A DNA stretch of 64,000 nucleotides, taken from positions 1-64,000 of the forward strand of contig NZ_CAKJTL010000050.1 of NCBI RefSeq assembly GCF_917627385.1, in the 5' to 3' direction. The DNA is from Protofrankia sp. CiT1. GTDB lineage: Bacteria; Actinomycetota; Actinomycetes; Frankiales; Frankiaceae. A program made the translations under genes and the position numbers. The notes below the pieces were generated by a model. The model worked only from the letters and a program-made list of their open reading frames with translations. It ran no database searches and was not told the origin of the DNA. Shown here in pieces: positions 40,906 to 63,051 of the stretch. Each line of letters begins with the position of its first letter. Within the stretch, counting starts at the first letter, position 1.

Positions 40906-43900
40906 GTGGTGGCGCAGGTATTCATCAGCCATGCCAGCGAAGACCGCGTTGTTGTGTCCCTGGTCGCCGGCTGGCTGCGGCAGGAGGGGCACGGGATATT
41001 CCTCAGTGGGGATCCCGAATGCGGGATGGCCACTGGTGATGCCTGGCAGTCGCGGCTGTTCGACGAACTGTTCCACGCCGATGCGCTCCTCGCGGTCGTG
41101 ACCCAGGAGTTTCGCGAGTCGGAGTGGTGCGCGGCGGAGATCGGGGCCGCGTTGGTGACCGGTTTGCGGATTCTGCCGCTGCTGGCCGAGCCGGCCGTGT
41201 CGAGCCCCCTGCTATCGAGCGCCATCACCCAACAGGCCGTGCTGGAGGACGGCGGGACGGCTGCCCGCGCGCGGCTGCTGGAAGCGTTACGCCGGATGGA
41301 TGGGGCCGGTGTCGCCACGTCGGCCGAGCAGGTGGTGTATCCGGGGCTGGCGGCATTCACCGCGGGGCAGGTGCGGATGTTCTTTGGCCGCACGGCGGAG
41401 AGCCGCCGGCTCGCCGGACGATTACGCGCGCCGGCTGATTCCGCGGGTGGGGGTTTGCTGCCCGTTGTCGGCCCCTCGGGGTGCGGGAAGTCGTCACTGG
41501 TCCGGGCCGGGCTGGCGCCGTTGCTGGATGCCGATCCGGACTGGCTGGTGCTGGCGCCGCTGGTGCCGGCGGCCAGCCCGAACACTGATCCGGGCGTGGA
41601 ACTGGTTCGGCTGTTGACGTCCGCCGGTCGCGCGCGTGGCCTGCTCTGGACGGCCAGCCAGGTCGCTGACACCGTCGACCGGCCAGGAGGCATCACCCGC
41701 CTGGTTGCCGATCTCCTCGCCGCGGGGTCGGCCCGTTATCTCCTGATTATTGTGGATCAGGCGGAAGAGCTCCTGACCCGTACCGCCGACACCGAATGCC
41801 GACGGTTCGTGACGGTGTTGCTGGAGGCCACCGGAGGGCCAGTACGCGCCGTGGCGACCGTCCGGTCGGACTATCTCGACCGGCTGATGAGTCTCGCGGA
41901 CGACATCGGCCTGCCCATCGGGGATCCGTTCCTGGTCACACCGCTGGAACCGGAGATGTTACAACAGGTCATCACCGGCCCGGCGCGCCGTGCCGGCATC
42001 ACCGTTGACGAGGACCTGTGCAGACGCTTGGTCGCCGACACCGGCAGCGGGGAGGCGCTTCCCCTGCTTGCCTTCGTCCTGGCTGAACTGGCTGAGGGGG
42101 TCAAGCGGGGCGGAGCCCTGTCCGGCGACCTGTACGACCGTCTCGGCGGTGTGCAAGGAGCTCTCGCTCGGCAGGCCGACGCGGCCCTGGCCGCGGCTAC
42201 CATCGCCACCGGACGTAGCGAGGCCGAGGTGCTGGCTGGCCTGGCGCGGCTGGTCACCGTCGATGCGAACGGTCAGGCCAGCCGCTGCCGCGCCTACCTT
42301 GACGAGCTGCCTGAGCAGGTCCGGACCGAGCTGAACGCGTTCGTCGAACGCCGGCTGCTCACCATCCACGCGGACGATACCCGCGGCGAGGCCAGCCGGC
42401 AGGCCATCGACCTTGCCCATGAGAAGATTCTCACCGCCTGGGCGCCCCTCGCCGATACCGTCGCCACCGCGACCGACCGACTGCGGCAGGCCGCGCAGGC
42501 ACGCGCCGCCGCCGAGGAATGGCGGCGGGAAGGAGAGCCCGCGAGCCACCTGTGGAGTCTCCCCCGGGCATCCGACGCCGAGGCCATGCTGGATACGCAC
42601 GAGATCACCGCGACCGTCCGCGCGTTTCTCGCCTCCAGCCGCCGCCAGGGCCGAAACCGCCGTCGGCGTGCTGGCGCGGTACTGGTCACGCTCATGCTTC
42701 TCGTCACCGTCGGCGGTCTCATCGCCACCTATCAGTGGATCGACGCCAGCAGGCAGCGGCACGAGGCGCTTCGCCAGCAGAAGCTCGCCGTTGCCCGTGC
42801 GCTCATCACCCAGGCCGACCAACTGCGCACCCGTGACCCGGTTACCGCGCTCCAGCTCAGCATCGAGGCGTACACCATCGATCCGGGGCTGCCGGAGGCC
42901 CGCGGCAGCCTGCTGTCAGCGCAGGCCGGCTACAGCGGTACAACGCTGGCACCGCCCGGAGGAACGGTGCACGGGCTCGCCTTCCGCGCTGGTGGTGCCA
43001 TGCTGGCCACGGCCGAGCACGACGGTGAGATCTGCCTGTGGGCCATGCCCGACCGGAAGATGATCAGATGCATCAGCGTGGCGGGAGGCGCTGTCTACGC
43101 GGTGGCTTTCAGCCCGGACGGGAACGTACTCGCGGGAGCCGGCCCCGACGGCATCTGGCTGTGGAACACCCAGACGTGGCAGCGCACCGCGACGCTTCAG
43201 GACGCGGTCGGCCCGAACGGCATCGCGTTCACCGCCGACAGCCACGCTCTTGTCGTCGCCGACTCCGCCGGTGTGAGTGTGTGGACCGTCTCCTCGGGAA
43301 AGCGGGAAAGGACGCTGTCCGGCTCGGCGCTGCTCAACGGTGTCGTTGCGGTCGCGCCGGACAACCGGAGCGTCGCGGCCGCGGGCTCGGACGGCACCGT
43401 GACCTTCTGGGATCTGCTGTCCGGCACGAGCGAGCGGGCTGCGGGCGACGCCGGATCGGTGCGGTCGATAGCTTATAGCCCTAATGGTGATCGTTTAGTG
43501 ACCGGGAGCGACACCGGGGTGGTAACGGTGTGGGACAGCGTGTCTCACACCCCGGTGGCCAAGGTCACCGAGTCTGACGGCGCTGTCCAGACGCTCGCGT
43601 TCAGCACGGACGGAAACAGGCTCGCCACCGGTGGGGGCGGTGCGTCGGTCCGGCTGTGGAATCTGGCTCCACTGACCCTGCTGACCGCGCTGACCGGACC
43701 TGTCGGCGACGTCCTGGCCGTGGCCTTCGGCCCTGACGGCCACACGCTCGCTGGAGCCGGAGCTGACAGCCTGGTAAGGCTGTGGACCGTCTCCGGGCCT
43801 GCGGACAGCGGCCTTCCGGAGGTCTTCGGCGCGGCCACGTTCGGGCCGGGCGGTGTCCTGGCCACGGCCGGCAGGGATCACATCCCGCTGCTGTGGGACA

Positions 43901-44895
43901 CGGCGGAGGGCGGCTCGGAGCCGGTGTTCCGTGCGGAGCTGCGGGGGACGCACAGCCCACCGGGGCACGGCCCCGGTACGGCCTTCGGGATGGCGTTCAA
44001 TGCGGCTGGCACGGTGCTGGCCGCGCCGACCTCCGGCGACACTGTGGGGAAGTGGGACCTGGGCCCGCCCGCCGGCGGTACCACCGGCCCGACCGATCCG
44101 ATGCCCGGCGTACCCATCCGCCCGGTGCGGGCCGTGGCCTTCAGCGGCACCGGAATCCTCGTGGTGCCCGCTGGGGCGAACGACGTCGGGGTGAACCGCG
44201 TCGTCATGGTGGACGCCGCGAGAAAGACGGTCGTCAAAGAGCTGAGATCCATGCACGCGGGGGCTGTCAACGCGGCCGCCGTCCATACCGGAGCGGATGG
44301 GCGGATGTCGGTGGCGACCGGCGGCGATGACGGTGTGATCGCCGTGTTGACAACGAAAGACGGAGCGTCGGCAGCGGGAGACAGCGCGTTGACAACGGAA
44401 GACAGCCAGCCACGTGTCTTCTACCCCAGGGGCGTCCAGGCGCCGGTCGAGGCGTTGGCGTTCACACCGGACGGGCGCACGCTCGCCAGCGGGAGTGATG
44501 ACGGCACCGTGGAGCTGTGGGACGTGCGTGCCCGCGTCCCTGTCGCGACCCTTCCCGGCACCAACAACCAGCCGATCGCCGCGTTATCGATCAACCGTGA
44601 CGGAACGCTGCTGGCTGCCGTGGGCGTCGATGGGCTCATCCATCTGTGGGACCTGCCCAGCCGGACCGCCGTCGCCACGCTGACCGGCCCCGTAGGAACC
44701 ATGGCGGTGGCTTTCCGGCCTGACGGTGACGGCCGCACGTTTGCCACCGCGGACCAGGACGGCACCCCCGTCCTGTGGGATACCGACCCGGCCCGGGTCC
44801 GGGCACGGCTGTGCGCCGGGCCGCTGCCCGCCATCGCCCCCGCGGACTGGTCGGTGATCGTTCCTGGTATGCCCTACCGGCAGGTATGCCGTTGA
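40906..44895 (+). CDS. TIR-STAND NTPase-transmembrane-double WD40 protein
   Basis: A 1329-residue multidomain protein. Residues 3-130 are a TIR domain (VFISHASEDR; SEWCAAEIG with E78 as the likely NADase glutamate). A STAND/AAA NTPase follows, with P-loop GPSGCGKS at 189-196 and Walker B IIVDQAEEL around D284. Next come a helical region, one membrane helix at about 589-611, and a coiled segment. From about residue 685 there are fourteen WD40-type blades, two of them degenerate, enough for two seven-bladed propellers. The tail has two cysteines (RLCAG and QVC). Topology predicts TIR and NTPase inside, propellers outside. GTG 40906 fits after a ggggg stretch. A lipoprotein gene follows after 18 bp. 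The likely role is signalling or conflict response; the ligand is unknown. Confidence 0.85.
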   Translation: MVAQVFISHASEDRVVVSLVAGWLRQEGHGIFLSGDPECGMATGDAWQSRLFDELFHADALLAVVTQEFRESEWCAAEIGAALVTGLRILPLLAEPAVSSPLLSSAITQQAVLEDGGTAARARLLEALRRMDGAGVATSAEQVVYPGLAAFTAGQVRMFFGRTAESRRLAGRLRAPADSAGGGLLPVVGPSGCGKSSLVRAGLAPLLDADPDWLVLAPLVPAASPNTDPGVELVRLLTSAGRARGLLWTASQVADTVDRPGGITRLVADLLAAGSARYLLIIVDQAEELLTRTADTECRRFVTVLLEATGGPVRAVATVRSDYLDRLMSLADDIGLPIGDPFLVTPLEPEMLQQVITGPARRAGITVDEDLCRRLVADTGSGEALPLLAFVLAELAEGVKRGGALSGDLYDRLGGVQGALARQADAALAAATIATGRSEAEVLAGLARLVTVDANGQASRCRAYLDELPEQVRTELNAFVERRLLTIHADDTRGEASRQAIDLAHEKILTAWAPLADTVATATDRLRQAAQARAAAEEWRREGEPASHLWSLPRASDAEAMLDTHEITATVRAFLASSRRQGRNRRRRAGAVLVTLMLLVTVGGLIATYQWIDASRQRHEALRQQKLAVARALITQADQLRTRDPVTALQLSIEAYTIDPGLPEARGSLLSAQAGYSGTTLAPPGGTVHGLAFRAGGAMLATAEHDGEICLWAMPDRKMIRCISVAGGAVYAVAFSPDGNVLAGAGPDGIWLWNTQTWQRTATLQDAVGPNGIAFTADSHALVVADSAGVSVWTVSSGKRERTLSGSALLNGVVAVAPDNRSVAAAGSDGTVTFWDLLSGTSERAAGDAGSVRSIAYSPNGDRLVTGSDTGVVTVWDSVSHTPVAKVTESDGAVQTLAFSTDGNRLATGGGGASVRLWNLAPLTLLTALTGPVGDVLAVAFGPDGHTLAGAGADSLVRLWTVSGPADSGLPEVFGAATFGPGGVLATAGRDHIPLLWDTAEGGSEPVFRAELRGTHSPPGHGPGTAFGMAFNAAGTVLAAPTSGDTVGKWDLGPPAGGTTGPTDPMPGVPIRPVRAVAFSGTGILVVPAGANDVGVNRVVMVDAARKTVVKELRSMHAGAVNAAAVHTGADGRMSVATGGDDGVIAVLTTKDGASAAGDSALTTEDSQPRVFYPRGVQAPVEALAFTPDGRTLASGSDDGTVELWDVRARVPVATLPGTNNQPIAALSINRDGTLLAAVGVDGLIHLWDLPSRTAVATLTGPVGTMAVAFRPDGDGRTFATADQDGTPVLWDTDPARVRARLCAGPLPAIAPADWSVIVPGMPYRQVCR

Positions 44896-44913
44896 TCATA
44901 GGAAGGGTGGCGT

Positions 44914-46197
44914 ATGTCGATCAGCATGAAGCGGTGCCGGCCGGCGCGTGCCCGGATATTGCTTGTGGCCGCGGCCGTCCTGCTCGCCGGATCGGCGTGC
45001 TCATCACGTAGCCCCCGGCCGGGTATGGATGGCGGTGGGCCCACGACGATCACCTGGTATGCGGGCTCGGTCGACCAGCACCAGAACGACTATCGCCGGA
45101 TTCTTGTCGACGCATTCGAGAACGCCTACCCGTCGATCAAAGTGAACATCGAATTCGGCACGGTGGACACCGACGTCAACCGAGCCGACCTGCTCCAGCG
45201 GCTGCGCGGGCTGGACGGTCCGGACGTCTACATGGGAGACGTCATCTGGCCGGCGGAGTTCGCTCACCAGAACATTGCCCGTAGCCTCGACGACATGTTC
45301 GACCGGGCGTTTTGGGAACGTATCGATCCCGGCCTGCTTGCGGCGGCCCGTTACCAGAACAAAATTTTCGCTGTGCCGCTCTTCCAGGACCAGGGACTGC
45401 TGTTCTACCGGAAGGATCTGGTGGCACCACCGACAACCTGGGAGGAGCTTGAAAAGGACGCCGACGCCCGGAACAAAAACATCACCCCCTATGGCTACCT
45501 CTGGCAGGGTGCCGCCTACGAGGGCCTCACCTGTGTCTGGACGGAGATGCTGGCCGATGCCGGGGGCAGCACACTGGACCCGGCCGGACCGCGCGCGGCC
45601 CTGAACTCCCCGCAGGCGCTACAGGCGCTGAGGTTCCTGCAGGACCTCATCCTGCGGGGGATCACGCCGTCGCAGGTGACGAGTTACCAGGAACCCGACA
45701 CCACCCAGCTCTTCGCGTCCGGCCAGGCAGTGTTTCTCCGCGGGTGGAGCTATGTGCTGGCCAGGCTGGGCTCCCTGAAGGACAAGGTGGGCGTGGCACC
45801 GCTGCCGACGTTCACCGGGCAGACCGGTCAGGGATTCTCCACCACCGGTGGCTGGAGCCTCTACGTCAACCCGCGCACCCGCAACCTCGACGCTGTCAAG
45901 ATTTTCATTCGCTGGCTGACCGACGTCCATGCGCAGCGCATTCTCCTCAATCTCTCCCAGATCCCCGTCAACCGGCAGGTACGCGACGAAGCACGCAACG
46001 CACCCCCGGAAACTCGTGATGACGCGGTAGTAGCCGGGCTGCAGGCCAGGGTTGTGTCCCGTCCCGCCGGCTGGCCCGCCTACCCCGCCATCAGCCAGGC
46101 GGTCTACTCCTCCGTCCAGAGCGTTCTCAGCCAGGGATCGGACCCGCGGGCGGCCCTGCTGGATGCCAGTACAAAGATCGATAATGCGCTCCGGTAG
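44914..46197 (+). CDS. Extracellular solute-binding lipoprotein (family 1, sugar type)
   Basis: A 427-residue ABC-type substrate-binding protein. The signal peptide RILLVAAAVLLAGSAC ends in a lipobox with lipidated Cys at about residue 29. The mature part has the two-lobe family 1 pattern: TITWYAGSVDQHQNDYRRILVDAFE, DVYMGDVIWPAEFA, FAVPLFQDQGLLFYRKDLV, and a C-terminal TTGGWSLYVNP. It resembles trehalose- or maltose-binding LpqY-like proteins. No permease or ATPase genes accompany it. It starts 18 bp after the TIR-STAND-WD40 stop with aggaaggg upstream of ATG 44914, so it is almost certainly co-transcribed with that gene. It may therefore act as an outer ligand sensor. Its 3' end overlaps the convergent gene by 71 bp. 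Confidence 0.88.
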   Translation: MSISMKRCRPARARILLVAAAVLLAGSACSSRSPRPGMDGGGPTTITWYAGSVDQHQNDYRRILVDAFENAYPSIKVNIEFGTVDTDVNRADLLQRLRGLDGPDVYMGDVIWPAEFAHQNIARSLDDMFDRAFWERIDPGLLAAARYQNKIFAVPLFQDQGLLFYRKDLVAPPTTWEELEKDADARNKNITPYGYLWQGAAYEGLTCVWTEMLADAGGSTLDPAGPRAALNSPQALQALRFLQDLILRGITPSQVTSYQEPDTTQLFASGQAVFLRGWSYVLARLGSLKDKVGVAPLPTFTGQTGQGFSTTGGWSLYVNPRTRNLDAVKIFIRWLTDVHAQRILLNLSQIPVNRQVRDEARNAPPETRDDAVVAGLQARVVSRPAGWPAYPAISQAVYSSVQSVLSQGSDPRAALLDASTKIDNALR

Positions 46198-48028
46198 TGC
46201 CGGGAACACCTGGCGGGCTCCGCGCGGCGGGCCCGGCCGCGGCCGGTGGGCAGCGGACGAAGCGGGTGATCTGGCCGGTCAGCGGCCAGGACCGCCGACC
46301 GGAGCCGTCCGGGCACCAACCGAGCCCGGCGAGTGTGCTGTCAAGGGCGCGGAGGCTGTCCGGGAAGACCAGGTTGTAGGTGACCAGGTACAGCGCACCG
46401 GCGTCCGGACGCGCGGCGAGGAAGGGAGGTATCGAGGCGGCCCAGCCCAGCGGGGGCAGGACCAGGGTGTTCATCTCGGTGACCGGCGTCGTCGGCGCGG
46501 TGGGCGCCGGATAACCGTCGTAGTACGACACGTAGTACTGCTGAGCCTTGTACCACTGCCGTTCATCCCATCGCCCGGGGATCACGATCTGGACGTCTCC
46601 CGGCCTGGCGGTCCGTTCGCCGGTGGCGACCAGCTCCCGCATGTCTCCCAGCAGCAGGGGGCTGTCCGCGCTGGCTCGGATCTGGCGGATCCGCTGGGCG
46701 CTCACCGCCGTGACGGCCAGGGTGGCGGTCATCGCCGTCGCCAGCAGGACGGCCGCGGCGGGGATCACCACCACCGACCGCCACCACCGCCGCGACCGGC
46801 ATGCCTGGCGGATGCGCGACCAGGCGAGGCTGATCAGGGCGGACGCGCCGATACCTGCGATCACGTACAGCAACGGCAGGATGAACAGGTTGGCCCGGAC
46901 GAATCCGATCGGCCACTGTCCCCGTGCCGCGGCCACCGCGATCAGCAGTAGCGCTCCGCCGAGGGTGACCAGCAGCGCCCGGCCGGCCCGGTCCCGCGCC
47001 GCGGCGTACACCCCGATCGTCCAGCACAGGAGCGCCCCCGCGACTACGCAGACATGCAGCCGGTGGTCGGGATCGGTAAGCAGCGGTGACCCTGTGAACG
47101 GCGAGCCGAACTGCCCGTCCGGACGGGTCATCGCCGCCGTGAACGCGTCGCGTGGTAACTCCCATCCGGCGCTCCGCAGCTGGGCGACTGCGTTGTCCCG
47201 GGTGATGAAGAAATTCCGCCAGTACGGATTCGTGGTCAGATAACTCTGCGGCAGGACGAACAGCGCGAGATGGAGGGATCCGACAACGCCGACCAGGGCT
47301 GATCCGACCACGCGAGCCGGGCGAAGGCGGTGGGCGCGCAGTGCCCGGCCGGCGTCCACCACGTCCACAAGAAGCAGGGGAACAAGGACGAACAGGGACG
47401 TGACGGTCATGACGACGCACCCCGCCATGCCCAGCTGCGCCCGCCACGGCGAACCGCCGGAGTCCGCGGCACGGCGCGCGTGCAGCCACAGGTACACCGC
47501 GGCCACCGCGCAGGTGGCCTCCGGCAGGTAGGACTTCAGCTGCATCCCGTAGACGAGCAGCCCGCCGTTGATCGTCAGAAGGCCGGCGACGATCGTGGCC
47601 GCGGGCCGTGACAACCACCAGCGGCCCAGGGCATAGGTGACCAGCGACAATGCGATCAGTGAGATGATCTGTGGTACCCGCAGGATCTTTTCGGTGTTTC
47701 CGCCGACGGCGACCGCCAGCTTCTCGACCGCGAGCCAGCCGAGTGACAGCGGCGCGTTGGCCGTCCTCAAGGTGTCGAACGAACCGGTACCGACACCGAT
47801 GTGATAGGCGCTGATGTGGTAGGCCCGCCATGCCTCGTCGTACCACAGCGGCCGGGCAAGCGTCGGCCACACCGCCACGACCACCGCCGCGTCCAGCCCG
47901 GCGAGCACGGCGAATGCCACAAGTGCCCCGGGGATCCCGGCCGTCGGCGGCGCACGGAAACCGTGATCGCGTCGCCTTCGGTCCGCCGGGTCGGTGGCAG
48001 GTTGCCGTAAGATCACCGTCACGTCCAC
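46127..48028 (-). CDS. GT39-like polytopic glycosyltransferase
   Basis: A 633-residue integral membrane protein with about ten or more helices. The first extracytoplasmic loop has PLWYDEAWRAYH, where the DE pair is typical of GT-C enzymes that use polyprenyl-phosphate sugars (ArnT/PMT-like). A C-terminal soluble domain contains IVIPGRWDERQWYKAQQYYVSYYDG. The sugar donor and acceptor cannot be read. GTG 48028 overlaps the end of the upstream ATPase gene by 10 bp, suggesting coupling. The last 23 codons overlap the convergent lipoprotein gene. It belongs with the polysaccharide locus. Confidence 0.83.
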   Translation of the reverse strand: MDVTVILRQPATDPADRRRRDHGFRAPPTAGIPGALVAFAVLAGLDAAVVVAVWPTLARPLWYDEAWRAYHISAYHIGVGTGSFDTLRTANAPLSLGWLAVEKLAVAVGGNTEKILRVPQIISLIALSLVTYALGRWWLSRPAATIVAGLLTINGGLLVYGMQLKSYLPEATCAVAAVYLWLHARRAADSGGSPWRAQLGMAGCVVMTVTSLFVLVPLLLVDVVDAGRALRAHRLRPARVVGSALVGVVGSLHLALFVLPQSYLTTNPYWRNFFITRDNAVAQLRSAGWELPRDAFTAAMTRPDGQFGSPFTGSPLLTDPDHRLHVCVVAGALLCWTIGVYAAARDRAGRALLVTLGGALLLIAVAAARGQWPIGFVRANLFILPLLYVIAGIGASALISLAWSRIRQACRSRRWWRSVVVIPAAAVLLATAMTATLAVTAVSAQRIRQIRASADSPLLLGDMRELVATGERTARPGDVQIVIPGRWDERQWYKAQQYYVSYYDGYPAPTAPTTPVTEMNTLVLPPLGWAASIPPFLAARPDAGALYLVTYNLVFPDSLRALDSTLAGLGWCPDGSGRRSWPLTGQITRFVRCPPAAAGPAARSPPGVPGTTGAHYRSLYWHPAGPPAGPIPG

Positions 48029-49383
48029 AGACGGTCGACCGGCAACACGGAAATCTGGTCGTCAGCGTGATAGCTGCGCTCGCCGAGGTAGAGGACGACG
48101 CCCCCGGCGAACCGTGACCCGAGTTTGTCCCGGAGCACCCGCAGGCCACGCAGGTCCTCGCCGGGCACCCGGGACCCGGCCTTGACTTCCACCGCCGCGA
48201 CACGTCCGTCGTCGGCCTCGATGACGAGGTCGACTTCCTGCCCGCTGCTCGTGCGGAAGTGCGCGGGTTCGACATATGTCTGTGACCAGCCCACCTGCTT
48301 GATGACTTCGTTCACGACGAACGTTTCCAGCAGGTGCCCGAACTCGGTGAGGGCCGCCGGGTCGCGGGCGACCAGCCGGCGTTCGGTGAGACCGAGCAGG
48401 TAGGCACCCAGCCCGGAGTCGACGAGGTGCACCTTGGGACTGGCCGTGACCCGGCTGTTGAGGGTTCGACCGAATGCCGGCAGCCGATGGACGAGGAACA
48501 CCGTTTCCAGAAGCTGGATGAAGTCCCCGACAAGATTTTGATCTTGTTTGACCGCCCGAGCGATGTCCGATGCCTTGAGTATCCCGCCGGTACGTGCCGC
48601 GAGCTGCCGCAGAATAAGCGGTAGCAGGCCACGCTGCCTGATTCTGCGGATTTCCAGGACGTCCCGTTCGATAACTGTCCGCACGTAGTCCCGGAACCAG
48701 CGGCTGCGGGCCGGGCCTTCTGGACGCCCCAGCACCAGCGGGAATCCCCCGGCCAGCACGCGCCGGGTCACGTCGTCCCGGGACAGCGCCGGCGAGCGGA
48801 TGGCGACCAGCGATTCCGGATCGTCCATCAGCTGGTCGACGAAGGTCGCGGGCTGCTGCTGGCGGCTGGGCAGGCCGTCGTCGAGCGAATAGCTGTCCGG
48901 CCGCTCCAGCTCTGCCTGCGCCAGCGGCCACAGGGTGGTGACATGGACGCGGCCCGCCAAGGACTGGGACAGCGTCGGCATCGTGAGATAACGGGTTGAC
49001 CCGGTGAGGACGAATCGTCCGGGCCGCAGATCGCGGTTCAGTTCCGCCTTGATTGCGTCCAGCAGCGCGGGGACGTGCTGGAACTCGTCGACGAGAACGG
49101 GGGACGGCGCCGCGGCGAAGAAGGTCGGGTCGGCGGTGACGGCCTGCCGCGTCGCGAGGTCATCAAGGTCGACGACCTCGCTCTGGTGATGTAGGGCGAG
49201 CCGCCGCAGCAGCGTGCTCTTGCCGACTGTGCGGGCACCGTTGATGACCAGGACGGGTTCGGAATCGATCAGCTCGAGCAGCACCGACAGGAGGTTGCGC
49301 CGGAAGGAGGACGAAGCCGGCGACGGGGGTCGTATCTCGCTGCCCCGGCCCGGCCCAGGGTCTTCGGTACTGGAGATCGACAT
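48019..49383 (-). CDS. AAA_14/DUF4143 ATP-binding protein
   Basis: A 454-residue ATPase with the AAA_14 core followed by DUF4143. Walker A is GARTVGKSTLL, Walker B VLVDEFQHVP, and sensor-like FVLTGSTRYL follows. A winged-helix segment precedes the C-terminal nuclease-like domain, where TSSGQEVDLVIEADDGRVAAVEVKAG carries the PD-(D/E)XK-type D, E and K. The family is widespread and poorly understood; proposed roles include defence or mobile-element control, but none is proven. ATG 49383 begins MSISSTEDP. Its promoter region contains 23-bp tandem repeats. It is coupled to the downstream glycosyltransferase by a 10-bp overlap, an odd pairing. Confidence 0.88.
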   Translation of the reverse strand: MSISSTEDPGPGRGSEIRPPSPASSSFRRNLLSVLLELIDSEPVLVINGARTVGKSTLLRRLALHHQSEVVDLDDLATRQAVTADPTFFAAAPSPVLVDEFQHVPALLDAIKAELNRDLRPGRFVLTGSTRYLTMPTLSQSLAGRVHVTTLWPLAQAELERPDSYSLDDGLPSRQQQPATFVDQLMDDPESLVAIRSPALSRDDVTRRVLAGGFPLVLGRPEGPARSRWFRDYVRTVIERDVLEIRRIRQRGLLPLILRQLAARTGGILKASDIARAVKQDQNLVGDFIQLLETVFLVHRLPAFGRTLNSRVTASPKVHLVDSGLGAYLLGLTERRLVARDPAALTEFGHLLETFVVNEVIKQVGWSQTYVEPAHFRTSSGQEVDLVIEADDGRVAAVEVKAGSRVPGEDLRGLRVLRDKLGSRFAGGVVLYLGERSYHADDQISVLPVDRLWT

Positions 49384-60486: not shown

Positions 60487-63051
60487 CTAGCACATTCCGG
60501 AGTAGGGCAGGTCAGGGATGTGCTCACGCCACTCGGCGGCGCTCAGGCGGTTGCCGCTGTCGGCGCAGGCTTGGGCGACGAGCGTGGCCGGGTCGATGTT
60601 CGCGATACGCGCGGTCCGGTCGTCGCTGAATGTGATCAACGTGTGGCCGTCGGGGCTGAGGACGACTCCCTGGACCCAGTCGGTCTGACCGCTGATCGTC
60701 CCTAGCGGCAGCGGATGATCAAAATCGGAGACGTCCCACAGGCGCGCGGTGGTGTCCCAGCCGGAGGTGACCAGTGTGTGGCCGTCGCGGCTGAACGCGG
60801 TGTCGTAGACCCAGGTGGGATCCGCTTTGATCGTTGTTCGGTTCGTCGGGGCCCGCGGATTGCGCACGTCCCATAGCCGGGCCGTGCCGTCGTAGCTCCC
60901 GGTCGCCAGGGTGTTCCCGTCCGGGCTGAAGGCGACCGACCACACGAAGTTGGTGTGGCCGTTGAGAGAGGCCAGCGGGACCGCCTGGGCGGGGTTGCTG
61001 ACGTCCCACAGGCGGGCGGTGTTGTCGGCGCTCGCGGTCGCCAGCAGCCGCCCGTCGGGGCTGAACGTGACGTCCTGTACCCAGCTCTGATGGCGGGCGA
61101 GCACCTGGAGCTGCCGTGGCCGGGCCCGGTTGGTCACGTCCCACAGACGGGCGGTGTTGTCGTCCCCGGCGGTCGCGAGCAGCCGCCCGTCCGGGCTGAA
61201 CGTGACGTCCCGGACATGCGCGTTGTGCCCGGTCAAGGTCGCCTGGGCCGCCGGATGGCTTGGATCGGTGACGTTCCACAGCCTGGCGGTGCCGTCGAAA
61301 CCGCCGGTGGCCAGGGTGCGGCCGTCCGGGCTGAACGCGACCGCCAGGACCCAGTCGGTGTGGCCGGTTATGACCGTGAGCAGGGCCGGTCGGGTCGGCC
61401 TGGTGATGTCCCAGAGCCGGACGGTCCGGTCCGCGCTCGCGGTCGCGAAGATGTTGCCGTCGGGGCTGAGCGCTCCGCCGAGGACGGATCCGGTGTGACC
61501 GGTCAGCGGCGTGGCATACCGTCCCGCGAACGATGTGATCAGGCTGGCCCGCGCCGCGGGAACTGGCGAGATGCGATATGCCGCAAGACTGAGCCGGGCG
61601 GCCAGCGCGGGGTCGACAGCGCGGGTCGCGTCGGCGTTCGCCGCGACTTTCCGTGCGACATCGGCCCGCCCCCGGACATCGGTCCTGGCTCCGCCGGAGG
61701 ACATCACCGCCGTGATCGTGATGGCGGCGGCGACCACCAGGATGATGGCGCTGGCGACCAGCGCCATCACCCTGGTGCGCGGAGCGTGCCAGCGGAGCTG
61801 GAGCCGGCGCCGATCGTCATCCGGGCCGGGCGGCCGGCGCATCGTGAGCCGGCCACCGGCGGTTCTGGTCGCCGCTGGTTTGGCTGGTACGGGTGCGGGT
61901 GGTTTGGCTGGTGCGGGTGCTGGTGCTGGTGGTGCGGGTGCTGGTGGTACGGGTGGTTTGGCTGGTGCCGGTGGTGCCGGTGGTGCCGGTGGTGCCGGTG
62001 GTGCTGGTACGGCTGGTGCCGGCACGGTTGCCTTGACCGTCGCTGGTGGTTTGGCTGGTACGGGTGCTGGTGTCGGTGGTTTGGCCGGTGCCGGTGGTTC
62101 CTTGGCCGCGCTGTCGTCCGGCAGCGTTGTCTGGAGCGGTGCTGGGGATGCTGGCGCGTTCCGTACGAACTGGGTGATCTGCGGGTCGGACTTGGCGACC
62201 GTACCCAGGTTGACCAGGCGAATCAGCAGCTCCTGGGCGTTCGGTCGCGCGTCGGGAGCCTTGTGCATCGCCGCTTTGACAACGTCGCGCAGCATGTCGG
62301 GCAGGCCGTCCAGGTTCGGCTCATGGTGGACGACCCGATAGAGCTGGGCGTCCGTCGAGCCTGCCCCGAAAGGGTACGACCCGGTTCCCGCGAAGGCGAC
62401 GAGCCCGCCCCAGGAGAAGATATCGGCGGCCGCGGTGACCGGCCCCCCGCTGGCCTGTTCCGGGGCCATGAAGGCCGGCGTGCCGACGACGCGCAGTTCC
62501 TTGCTGATGACTGTTTCCGCCTCCACGGCGCGGGCGATCCCGAAGTCGATGACCCGTGGCCCCAGCGGTGAGAGCAGGACGTTGGACGGTTTCAGATCCC
62601 GGTGGATCAGGCCGGCCGCGTGGATGGCGGTGAGGGCGGCGGCGACACTGACCGCGACCCGTTCGAGATCGGCCGACTGCAACGGACCGCCAGCGGCCAC
62701 GGCCTGCGTCAGGGTGGGACCGTCGATGTACTCGGTGACCAGGTAGGGCGCGGCGTCGCTGGGGTCCACCATGTCGAGAACCTCGGCCGTGCAGAACCGG
62801 GCGACCCATTGGGCGAGGGCGGCCTCCCGGCGGAACCGCGCCCGGAACTCGGGGATACGGGCGAATTCCGCTCGGATCACCTTGACCGCGACCAGCCGGT
62901 CATCCGGTCCGCGCCCCAGGTAGACCGTACCCATACCACCTTCGCCGAGGCGGCCCAGCAACACGTAGCGACCCAGGCTGGGCGGGTCGGCGGGAGTAAG
63001 CGGCGCGGACAGGTCCGCGGACCCGCGGGGTGGCGAGGATGACAGGGACAC
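60487..63051 (-). CDS. Ser/Thr protein kinase with extracytoplasmic WD40 propeller
   Basis: An 854-residue PknB-like kinase. Glycine loop GEGGMGTVYLG, catalytic lysine in VAVKVI, HRDLKPSN and DFGIARAV are intact, with GTPAFMAPEQ as the P+1 region. A long Pro/Ala linker (about residues 316-420, from 9-bp tandem DNA repeats) leads to one membrane helix at about 427-450 (VMALVASAIILVVAAAITI). Seven WD40 repeats follow (LWDITRP to the degenerate IANIDPA), and the tail carries two cysteines (QACAD and SGMC). The kinase is cytoplasmic and the propeller outside. The post-membrane AARLSLAAYRISP segment resembles the TIR-STAND protein at the same position. ATG 63051. Confidence 0.93.
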   Translation of the reverse strand: MSLSSSPPRGSADLSAPLTPADPPSLGRYVLLGRLGEGGMGTVYLGRGPDDRLVAVKVIRAEFARIPEFRARFRREAALAQWVARFCTAEVLDMVDPSDAAPYLVTEYIDGPTLTQAVAAGGPLQSADLERVAVSVAAALTAIHAAGLIHRDLKPSNVLLSPLGPRVIDFGIARAVEAETVISKELRVVGTPAFMAPEQASGGPVTAAADIFSWGGLVAFAGTGSYPFGAGSTDAQLYRVVHHEPNLDGLPDMLRDVVKAAMHKAPDARPNAQELLIRLVNLGTVAKSDPQITQFVRNAPASPAPLQTTLPDDSAAKEPPAPAKPPTPAPVPAKPPATVKATVPAPAVPAPPAPPAPPAPPAPAKPPVPPAPAPPAPAPAPAKPPAPVPAKPAATRTAGGRLTMRRPPGPDDDRRRLQLRWHAPRTRVMALVASAIILVVAAAITITAVMSSGGARTDVRGRADVARKVAANADATRAVDPALAARLSLAAYRISPVPAARASLITSFAGRYATPLTGHTGSVLGGALSPDGNIFATASADRTVRLWDITRPTRPALLTVITGHTDWVLAVAFSPDGRTLATGGFDGTARLWNVTDPSHPAAQATLTGHNAHVRDVTFSPDGRLLATAGDDNTARLWDVTNRARPRQLQVLARHQSWVQDVTFSPDGRLLATASADNTARLWDVSNPAQAVPLASLNGHTNFVWSVAFSPDGNTLATGSYDGTARLWDVRNPRAPTNRTTIKADPTWVYDTAFSRDGHTLVTSGWDTTARLWDVSDFDHPLPLGTISGQTDWVQGVVLSPDGHTLITFSDDRTARIANIDPATLVAQACADSGNRLSAAEWREHIPDLPYSGMC

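Follow-up and report, generated by a model that had tools for sequence, protein, structure and literature searches.

Why is a solute-binding protein (SBP) that has no transporter genes beside it encoded directly behind a receptor-like TIR–STAND protein? The question is raised by two genes on the forward strand (positions 40906-46197) of a stretch of 64,000 nucleotides from Protofrankia sp. CiT1 (contig NZ_CAKJTL010000050.1), which is called the window here. An earlier note on this DNA had suggested that the binding protein may touch the receptor outside the cell and trigger a response inside, and the following analysis asks what the two proteins are, whether they belong together, and how they could work.

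Anatomy of the two proteins

The first gene (40906-44895, GTG start) encodes a protein of 1329 amino acids in which, according to the open reading frame and Pfam, a TIR domain, an nSTAND1 NTPase, a membrane helix and tandem WD40 propellers follow one another. The TIR_2 domain covers residues 5-107 (40918-41226; E 2.5e-16, 60.7 bits versus a cut-off of 28). The NTPase domain (residues 145-545, 41338-42540) belongs to the nSTAND1 family by its Pfam score (PF20703, E 4e-76, 257.5 bits versus a cut-off of 27.1) and by an intact Walker A motif, the P-loop GPSGCGKSS that can be read at residues 189-197 (41470-41496). It is followed by a single, strongly hydrophobic helix (residues 589-607, 42670-42726), and the 15 residues N-terminal of this helix include seven lysines or arginines and not one acidic residue. 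All five orthologs of the receptor have this helix too, again with a positive flank on the inner side. Because of the positive flank, the positive-inside rule predicts that the TIR domain and the NTPase are cytoplasmic and that the propellers are outside, a topology based on hydrophobicity and charge alone.

The two WD40 beta-propellers of the predicted outer region (42967-44790) are recognised by Pfam WD40 repeats, by a structure model and by fold matches in the PDB. The model, made with an alignment of six sequences, has 52 strands that correspond to about 13-14 blades, and a 14-bladed propeller, double seven-bladed propellers and Apaf-1 are among the structures in the PDB that match the outer region best. 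At a pTM of 0.53, propeller 1 is well predicted and propeller 2 weakly. The domains described in the earlier note are thus confirmed, and so is the one membrane helix, the reality of which had been named there as a point on which the proposal could fail. The proposed topology agrees with the flanks of the helix in the window and in the five orthologs, and of the fourteen blades counted in the note, about 13-14 are compatible with the modelled strands, but the second propeller is weakly modelled.

After a gap of 18 bp (44896-44913) with a Shine-Dalgarno-like AGGAAGGG at 44900-44907, the second gene (44914-46197) encodes an SBP of 427 amino acids. It is of the trehalose/maltose type, as found with Pfam (SBP_bac_1, E 8e-33) and by PDB profile matches, where a profile of the six SBPs that are paired with such receptors (see below) has its best hits with MalE3 (E 6e-68) and the trehalose/maltose-binding protein 1eu8 (E 3e-66). 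An aspartate, two tryptophans and an arginine, which we take to be sugar-contacting residues of the trehalose/maltose-binding protein, are kept at the aligned positions D109, W278, W314 and R383, and at the position of D159, another aspartate of the pocket, four of the six paired SBPs have an asparagine. The protein begins with a signal peptide and a lipobox-like LAGSAC ending in Cys29 (44914-45000).

Fold and signal peptide are those of an SBP of ABC transporters; adjacent permease genes are found neither in the window nor at the five orthologous pairs, and no ABC ATPase gene adjoins the SBP gene of the window. As the source genome contains 21 BPD permease domains elsewhere, the paired SBP may share a transporter that is encoded at another place. 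The six paired SBPs form one clade (97/97) in the SBP tree, and since its sister branches are ABC-type SBPs, the family probably goes back to the recruitment of an SBP that served transport. What the earlier note had said about the short gap and the lack of permease and ATPase genes holds. Its description of a sugar-type lipoprotein is correct for the sugar type and for the window, but a lipobox occurs only in two of the six SBPs (Cys29 of the window, and L058), whereas the N-terminus of the remaining four is of the twin-arginine export type and lacks a lipobox; judged from these N-termini, a lipid anchor is not general to the paired SBP family.

Conservation of the pair and exchange of its inner half

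A sample of 35 genomes of the same family as the window contains five further close orthologs of the SBP, spread over four other genera, and every one of them is encoded directly behind a TIR–nSTAND1–TM–WD40 gene, which makes six of six with the window. The genes overlap by ATGA in three orthologs and by GTGA in one, while the fifth has a gap of about 55 bp and the window that of 18 bp. In contrast, 22 other TIR/nSTAND1 loci were inspected, and no SBP could be detected near any of them; at some of these loci the contig stops shortly behind the gene. The six pairs are located at no fewer than five different chromosomal sites. At the syntenic site of the window, both genes are missing in four sister species, where metG and the downstream membrane-protein gene flank a different membrane-protein gene instead of the pair (three of these sites are bridged on both sides, and one is visible up to the contig end). 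This absence from the sister species is what could be brought forward for a chance adjacency in the source genome, but with six conserved pairs against none at the 22 control loci such an explanation is rejected, and its likelihood is negligible. The conserved adjacency that the earlier note had proposed to look for in other genomes is therefore real, and the anatomy and the pairing can be regarded as near certain.

The known pairs are few and come from six species of one bacterial family. Outside the family, no pair was found in samples of 395 genomes of the class and 397 of the phylum, where the strong SBP matches are parts of canonical ABC operons (L101, L102, L204), lie at a contig end that cuts off any transporter context (L100), or are in an unrelated neighbourhood (L205). 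A peptide-pattern scan of the contigs of the source genome detected only remote SBPs, and a plasmid search only generic SBPs with less than 60% identity. Other SBP loci may be mentioned here. At L063 (6201-6617, G009:C1), a truncated C-terminal part is what is left of a related SBP (about 43% identity); a transposase-like frame lies at a distance of about 0.5 kb, no receptor was found in the vicinity, and the locus is probably a decayed pair. Many genomes of one genus have a related SBP at a group of loci termed f18 (L103, L104 and others); on one side it adjoins a divergent ABC ATPase gene, and on the other the nearest permeases that were recognised are 3-5 kb distant.

The two halves of the receptor have different ancestries. 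The TIR–STAND part of the window protein has its nearest relatives among unpaired proteins, first of all a paralogue of the same genome on contig C127 (64% identity in the STAND domain), and shares only 37-46% identity with the paired orthologs, whereas for the propeller region the paired ortholog L058 is the best match by a wide margin (388 bits). In sliding-identity comparisons, the unpaired paralogue is closer than L058 in all 14 windows of residues 1-630, and L058 is closer in 15 of 16 windows of residues 631-1329. Together with the trees, this places the junction at about residues 625-640 (42778-42825), just outside the membrane. The STAND tree has the six paired heads in three separate places, with three changes of pairing forced by well-supported branches, and AU tests reject a single clade of paired heads (p = 7e-6) as well as a grouping of the window with L058 (p = 5e-6), so that a direct vertical inheritance of the whole receptor is rejected.

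On the outer side, the six propeller regions form one clade (100/100), in a tree of 17 rows that could change with wider sampling, as its proteins were found via their STAND domain. A search with the propellers of the window in the 35 family genomes found only one other protein at E<1e-40, which is the SBP-paired partner in L058. As the heads have three places in their tree and the propellers and the SBPs only one clade each, the simplest reading of these trees is that the outer propellers and the SBP are a functional unit that is inherited together, and that the inner TIR–STAND part is exchangeable. Since propellers and SBP are contiguous, DNA linkage alone could contribute to their co-inheritance: a single recombination event close to the helix would be enough to keep them side by side, even if the proteins never touch.

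A possible outside-in receptor and its alternatives

The co-inheritance across the head swap suggests that some extracellular cue is sensed by the pair, and it lends independent but indirect support to an action of the SBP on the propellers. A functional coupling of these two is, in our judgement, likely. What we infer in the following scheme is the contact itself, which ligand is bound, in which direction the regulation runs, that the STAND part oligomerises, that the output is an NADase activity, and the biological role. The exported SBP, lipid-anchored in the window, would sample a small ligand outside the membrane, which may most likely be an alpha-glucoside or a disaccharide such as trehalose. 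In one of its ligand states the SBP would act on the tandem propellers of its partner, and the signal would pass via the one membrane helix into the cytoplasm, where the nSTAND1 NTPase would oligomerise with nucleotide exchange and thereby gather TIR domains. The clustered TIRs could then form a composite site that cleaves NAD+, and as a consequence growth may be arrested or a nucleotide second messenger may be made. For such a two-component, outside-in NLR-like receptor, in which the SBP drives STAND/TIR assembly by acting on the propellers and NAD+ is probably cleaved, we estimate a probability of about 0.55.

The last step depends on the TIR domain. Many TIRs are known as adaptors, and adaptor and Toll-like-receptor TIRs are also among the sequence matches of this domain. 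The domain could thus serve as a scaffold that recruits another effector and have no NADase activity itself, but this is doubtful, as there is no companion effector gene in the cassette, the closest folds are NADase TIRs, and the candidate catalytic glutamate is invariant. This glutamate, E78 in a WCxxE motif (41137-41139), is identical throughout an alignment of 15 TIRs. Its aligned counterpart in NADase TIRs (AbTIR and relatives) is the glutamate of the WxxxE motif, which by alignment puts E78 on helix alpha-C, and the suggestion of the earlier note that E78 may be the NADase residue has gained from both alignments. The fold, assigned by Pfam and by a confident model (pLDDT 85.6), has its nearest solved counterparts in the TIRs of SARM1, of the antiphage NADase SpbK, and of SPARTA. 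In the case of SpbK, TIR clustering turns on the NADase activity (PMC12847820). An NADase output of the receptor is, as we judge it, somewhat favoured.

The SBP, for its part, could be an ordinary orphan sugar-binding protein that serves an ABC transporter encoded elsewhere and is a passenger with the receptor in a mobile segment. The nearest relatives outside the pair do adjoin permeases (L101, L102, L204), the 21 permease domains of the genome offer possible partners, and physical linkage by itself can preserve a neighbour. That all six members of the SBP clade are paired and without neighbouring permeases, that the linkage lasted through head swaps and five genomic sites, and that reading frames overlap in four of the pairs makes a passenger unlikely, however. 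It is likewise improbable that SBP and receptor cooperate with small-ligand binding being irrelevant, the SBP then acting as a structural co-receptor, an inhibitor, or a decoy for a phage or a contact-dependent toxin: the patchy presence and the empty sites are like those of defence genes, and the exchange at D159 would be in line with this, but the general fold and most pocket positions are conserved. We therefore prefer the ligand-dependent outside-in receptor. If this is true, an extracellular chemical cue is linked to a death- or arrest-type output, and as the binding-protein fold is known, the usual ligand screens for SBPs could identify the ligand.

Relation to known systems

In known STAND/NLR-type immune proteins, sensing is mostly intracellular. 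SBPs that report a ligand to a transmembrane receptor are known from LuxP–LuxQ, ChvE–VirA and MBP–Tar, but there the output is a kinase or chemotaxis signal and not a TIR–STAND module. Apaf-1 likewise has a STAND NTPase followed by two WD40 propellers, and it is among the best PDB matches of the propeller region, but it is cytosolic, has a CARD instead of the TIR domain, and senses cytochrome c directly. Conflict proteins of the nSTAND1-class STAND/NLR-like type with TIR effectors are enriched in multicellular prokaryotes (eLife 70394, PMC8195603; eLife 52696, PMC7159879); like the receptor described here, they have an N-terminal effector such as TIR, a central STAND NTPase and a C-terminal repeat sensor, but in the window this sensor is predicted outside the membrane and is paired with a separate exported SBP. 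A term search in PMC8195603 and PMC7159879 gave no TIR–STAND/SBP pair.

Parts of the arrangement are already known. The predicted conflict system EACC1 'System 4' has a TM and an extracellular periplasmic-binding-protein domain (PMC7159879), which is fused behind a caspase-type protein, whereas the SBP of the window is a separate gene behind TIR–STAND–WD40. A precedent for a functional interaction of propeller and SBP is AztD–AztC, where a periplasmic propeller-fold protein acts directly on an SBP (PMC6689063), but this is a zinc chaperone for an ABC transporter, with neither signalling nor a stable complex. Among catalogued defence systems, Thoeris (ThsB and ThsA) does not apply, with weak ThsB-like TIR matches (23 bits) and no ThsA in the cassette, and PADLOC and NCBIfam gave only weak matches at the TIR level for any other system. 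Like the author of the earlier note, who knew of no such pair, we did not find the combination, the outside-in topology or the swap at the membrane boundary described in a literature search with most subscription journals outside its reach.

The head swap indicates how such receptors can evolve, namely by combining the same outer sensing unit with different TIR–STAND heads. As a wider and more tentative idea, to which we give slightly less than even odds, the pair may represent modular NLR-like transmembrane STAND receptors with outside-in signalling, the extracytoplasmic propellers of which use a detachable sugar-binding SBP as co-receptor and the heads of which are swapped at the membrane boundary, and SBPs may have become sensors of TIR modules on more than one occasion.

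The source genome has a second orphan SBP of a separate clade (L021 4668-6485, G000:C171), which immediately follows a TIR frame that contains an in-frame stop codon. The two orthologs of this SBP (L064 5677-8929 and L065 2394-7694) are found behind TM–SBP_bac_11–VWA proteins, and in one of these two genomes an EAD1–TIR gene is located upstream of the TM–SBP_bac_11–VWA protein. As this second clade adjoins TIR and SBP-VWA genes, loci of the C171 type may be a second TIR/SBP sensor system, and they suggest that SBPs are used more widely as the outer sensors of TIR modules. In the window itself, an AAA_14/DUF4143 ATPase is encoded near the pair on the reverse strand (48019-49383), beside glycosyltransferase-like genes, and about 14 kb from the pair, also on the reverse strand, there is a Ser/Thr protein kinase that is fused to a WD40 propeller (60487-63051).
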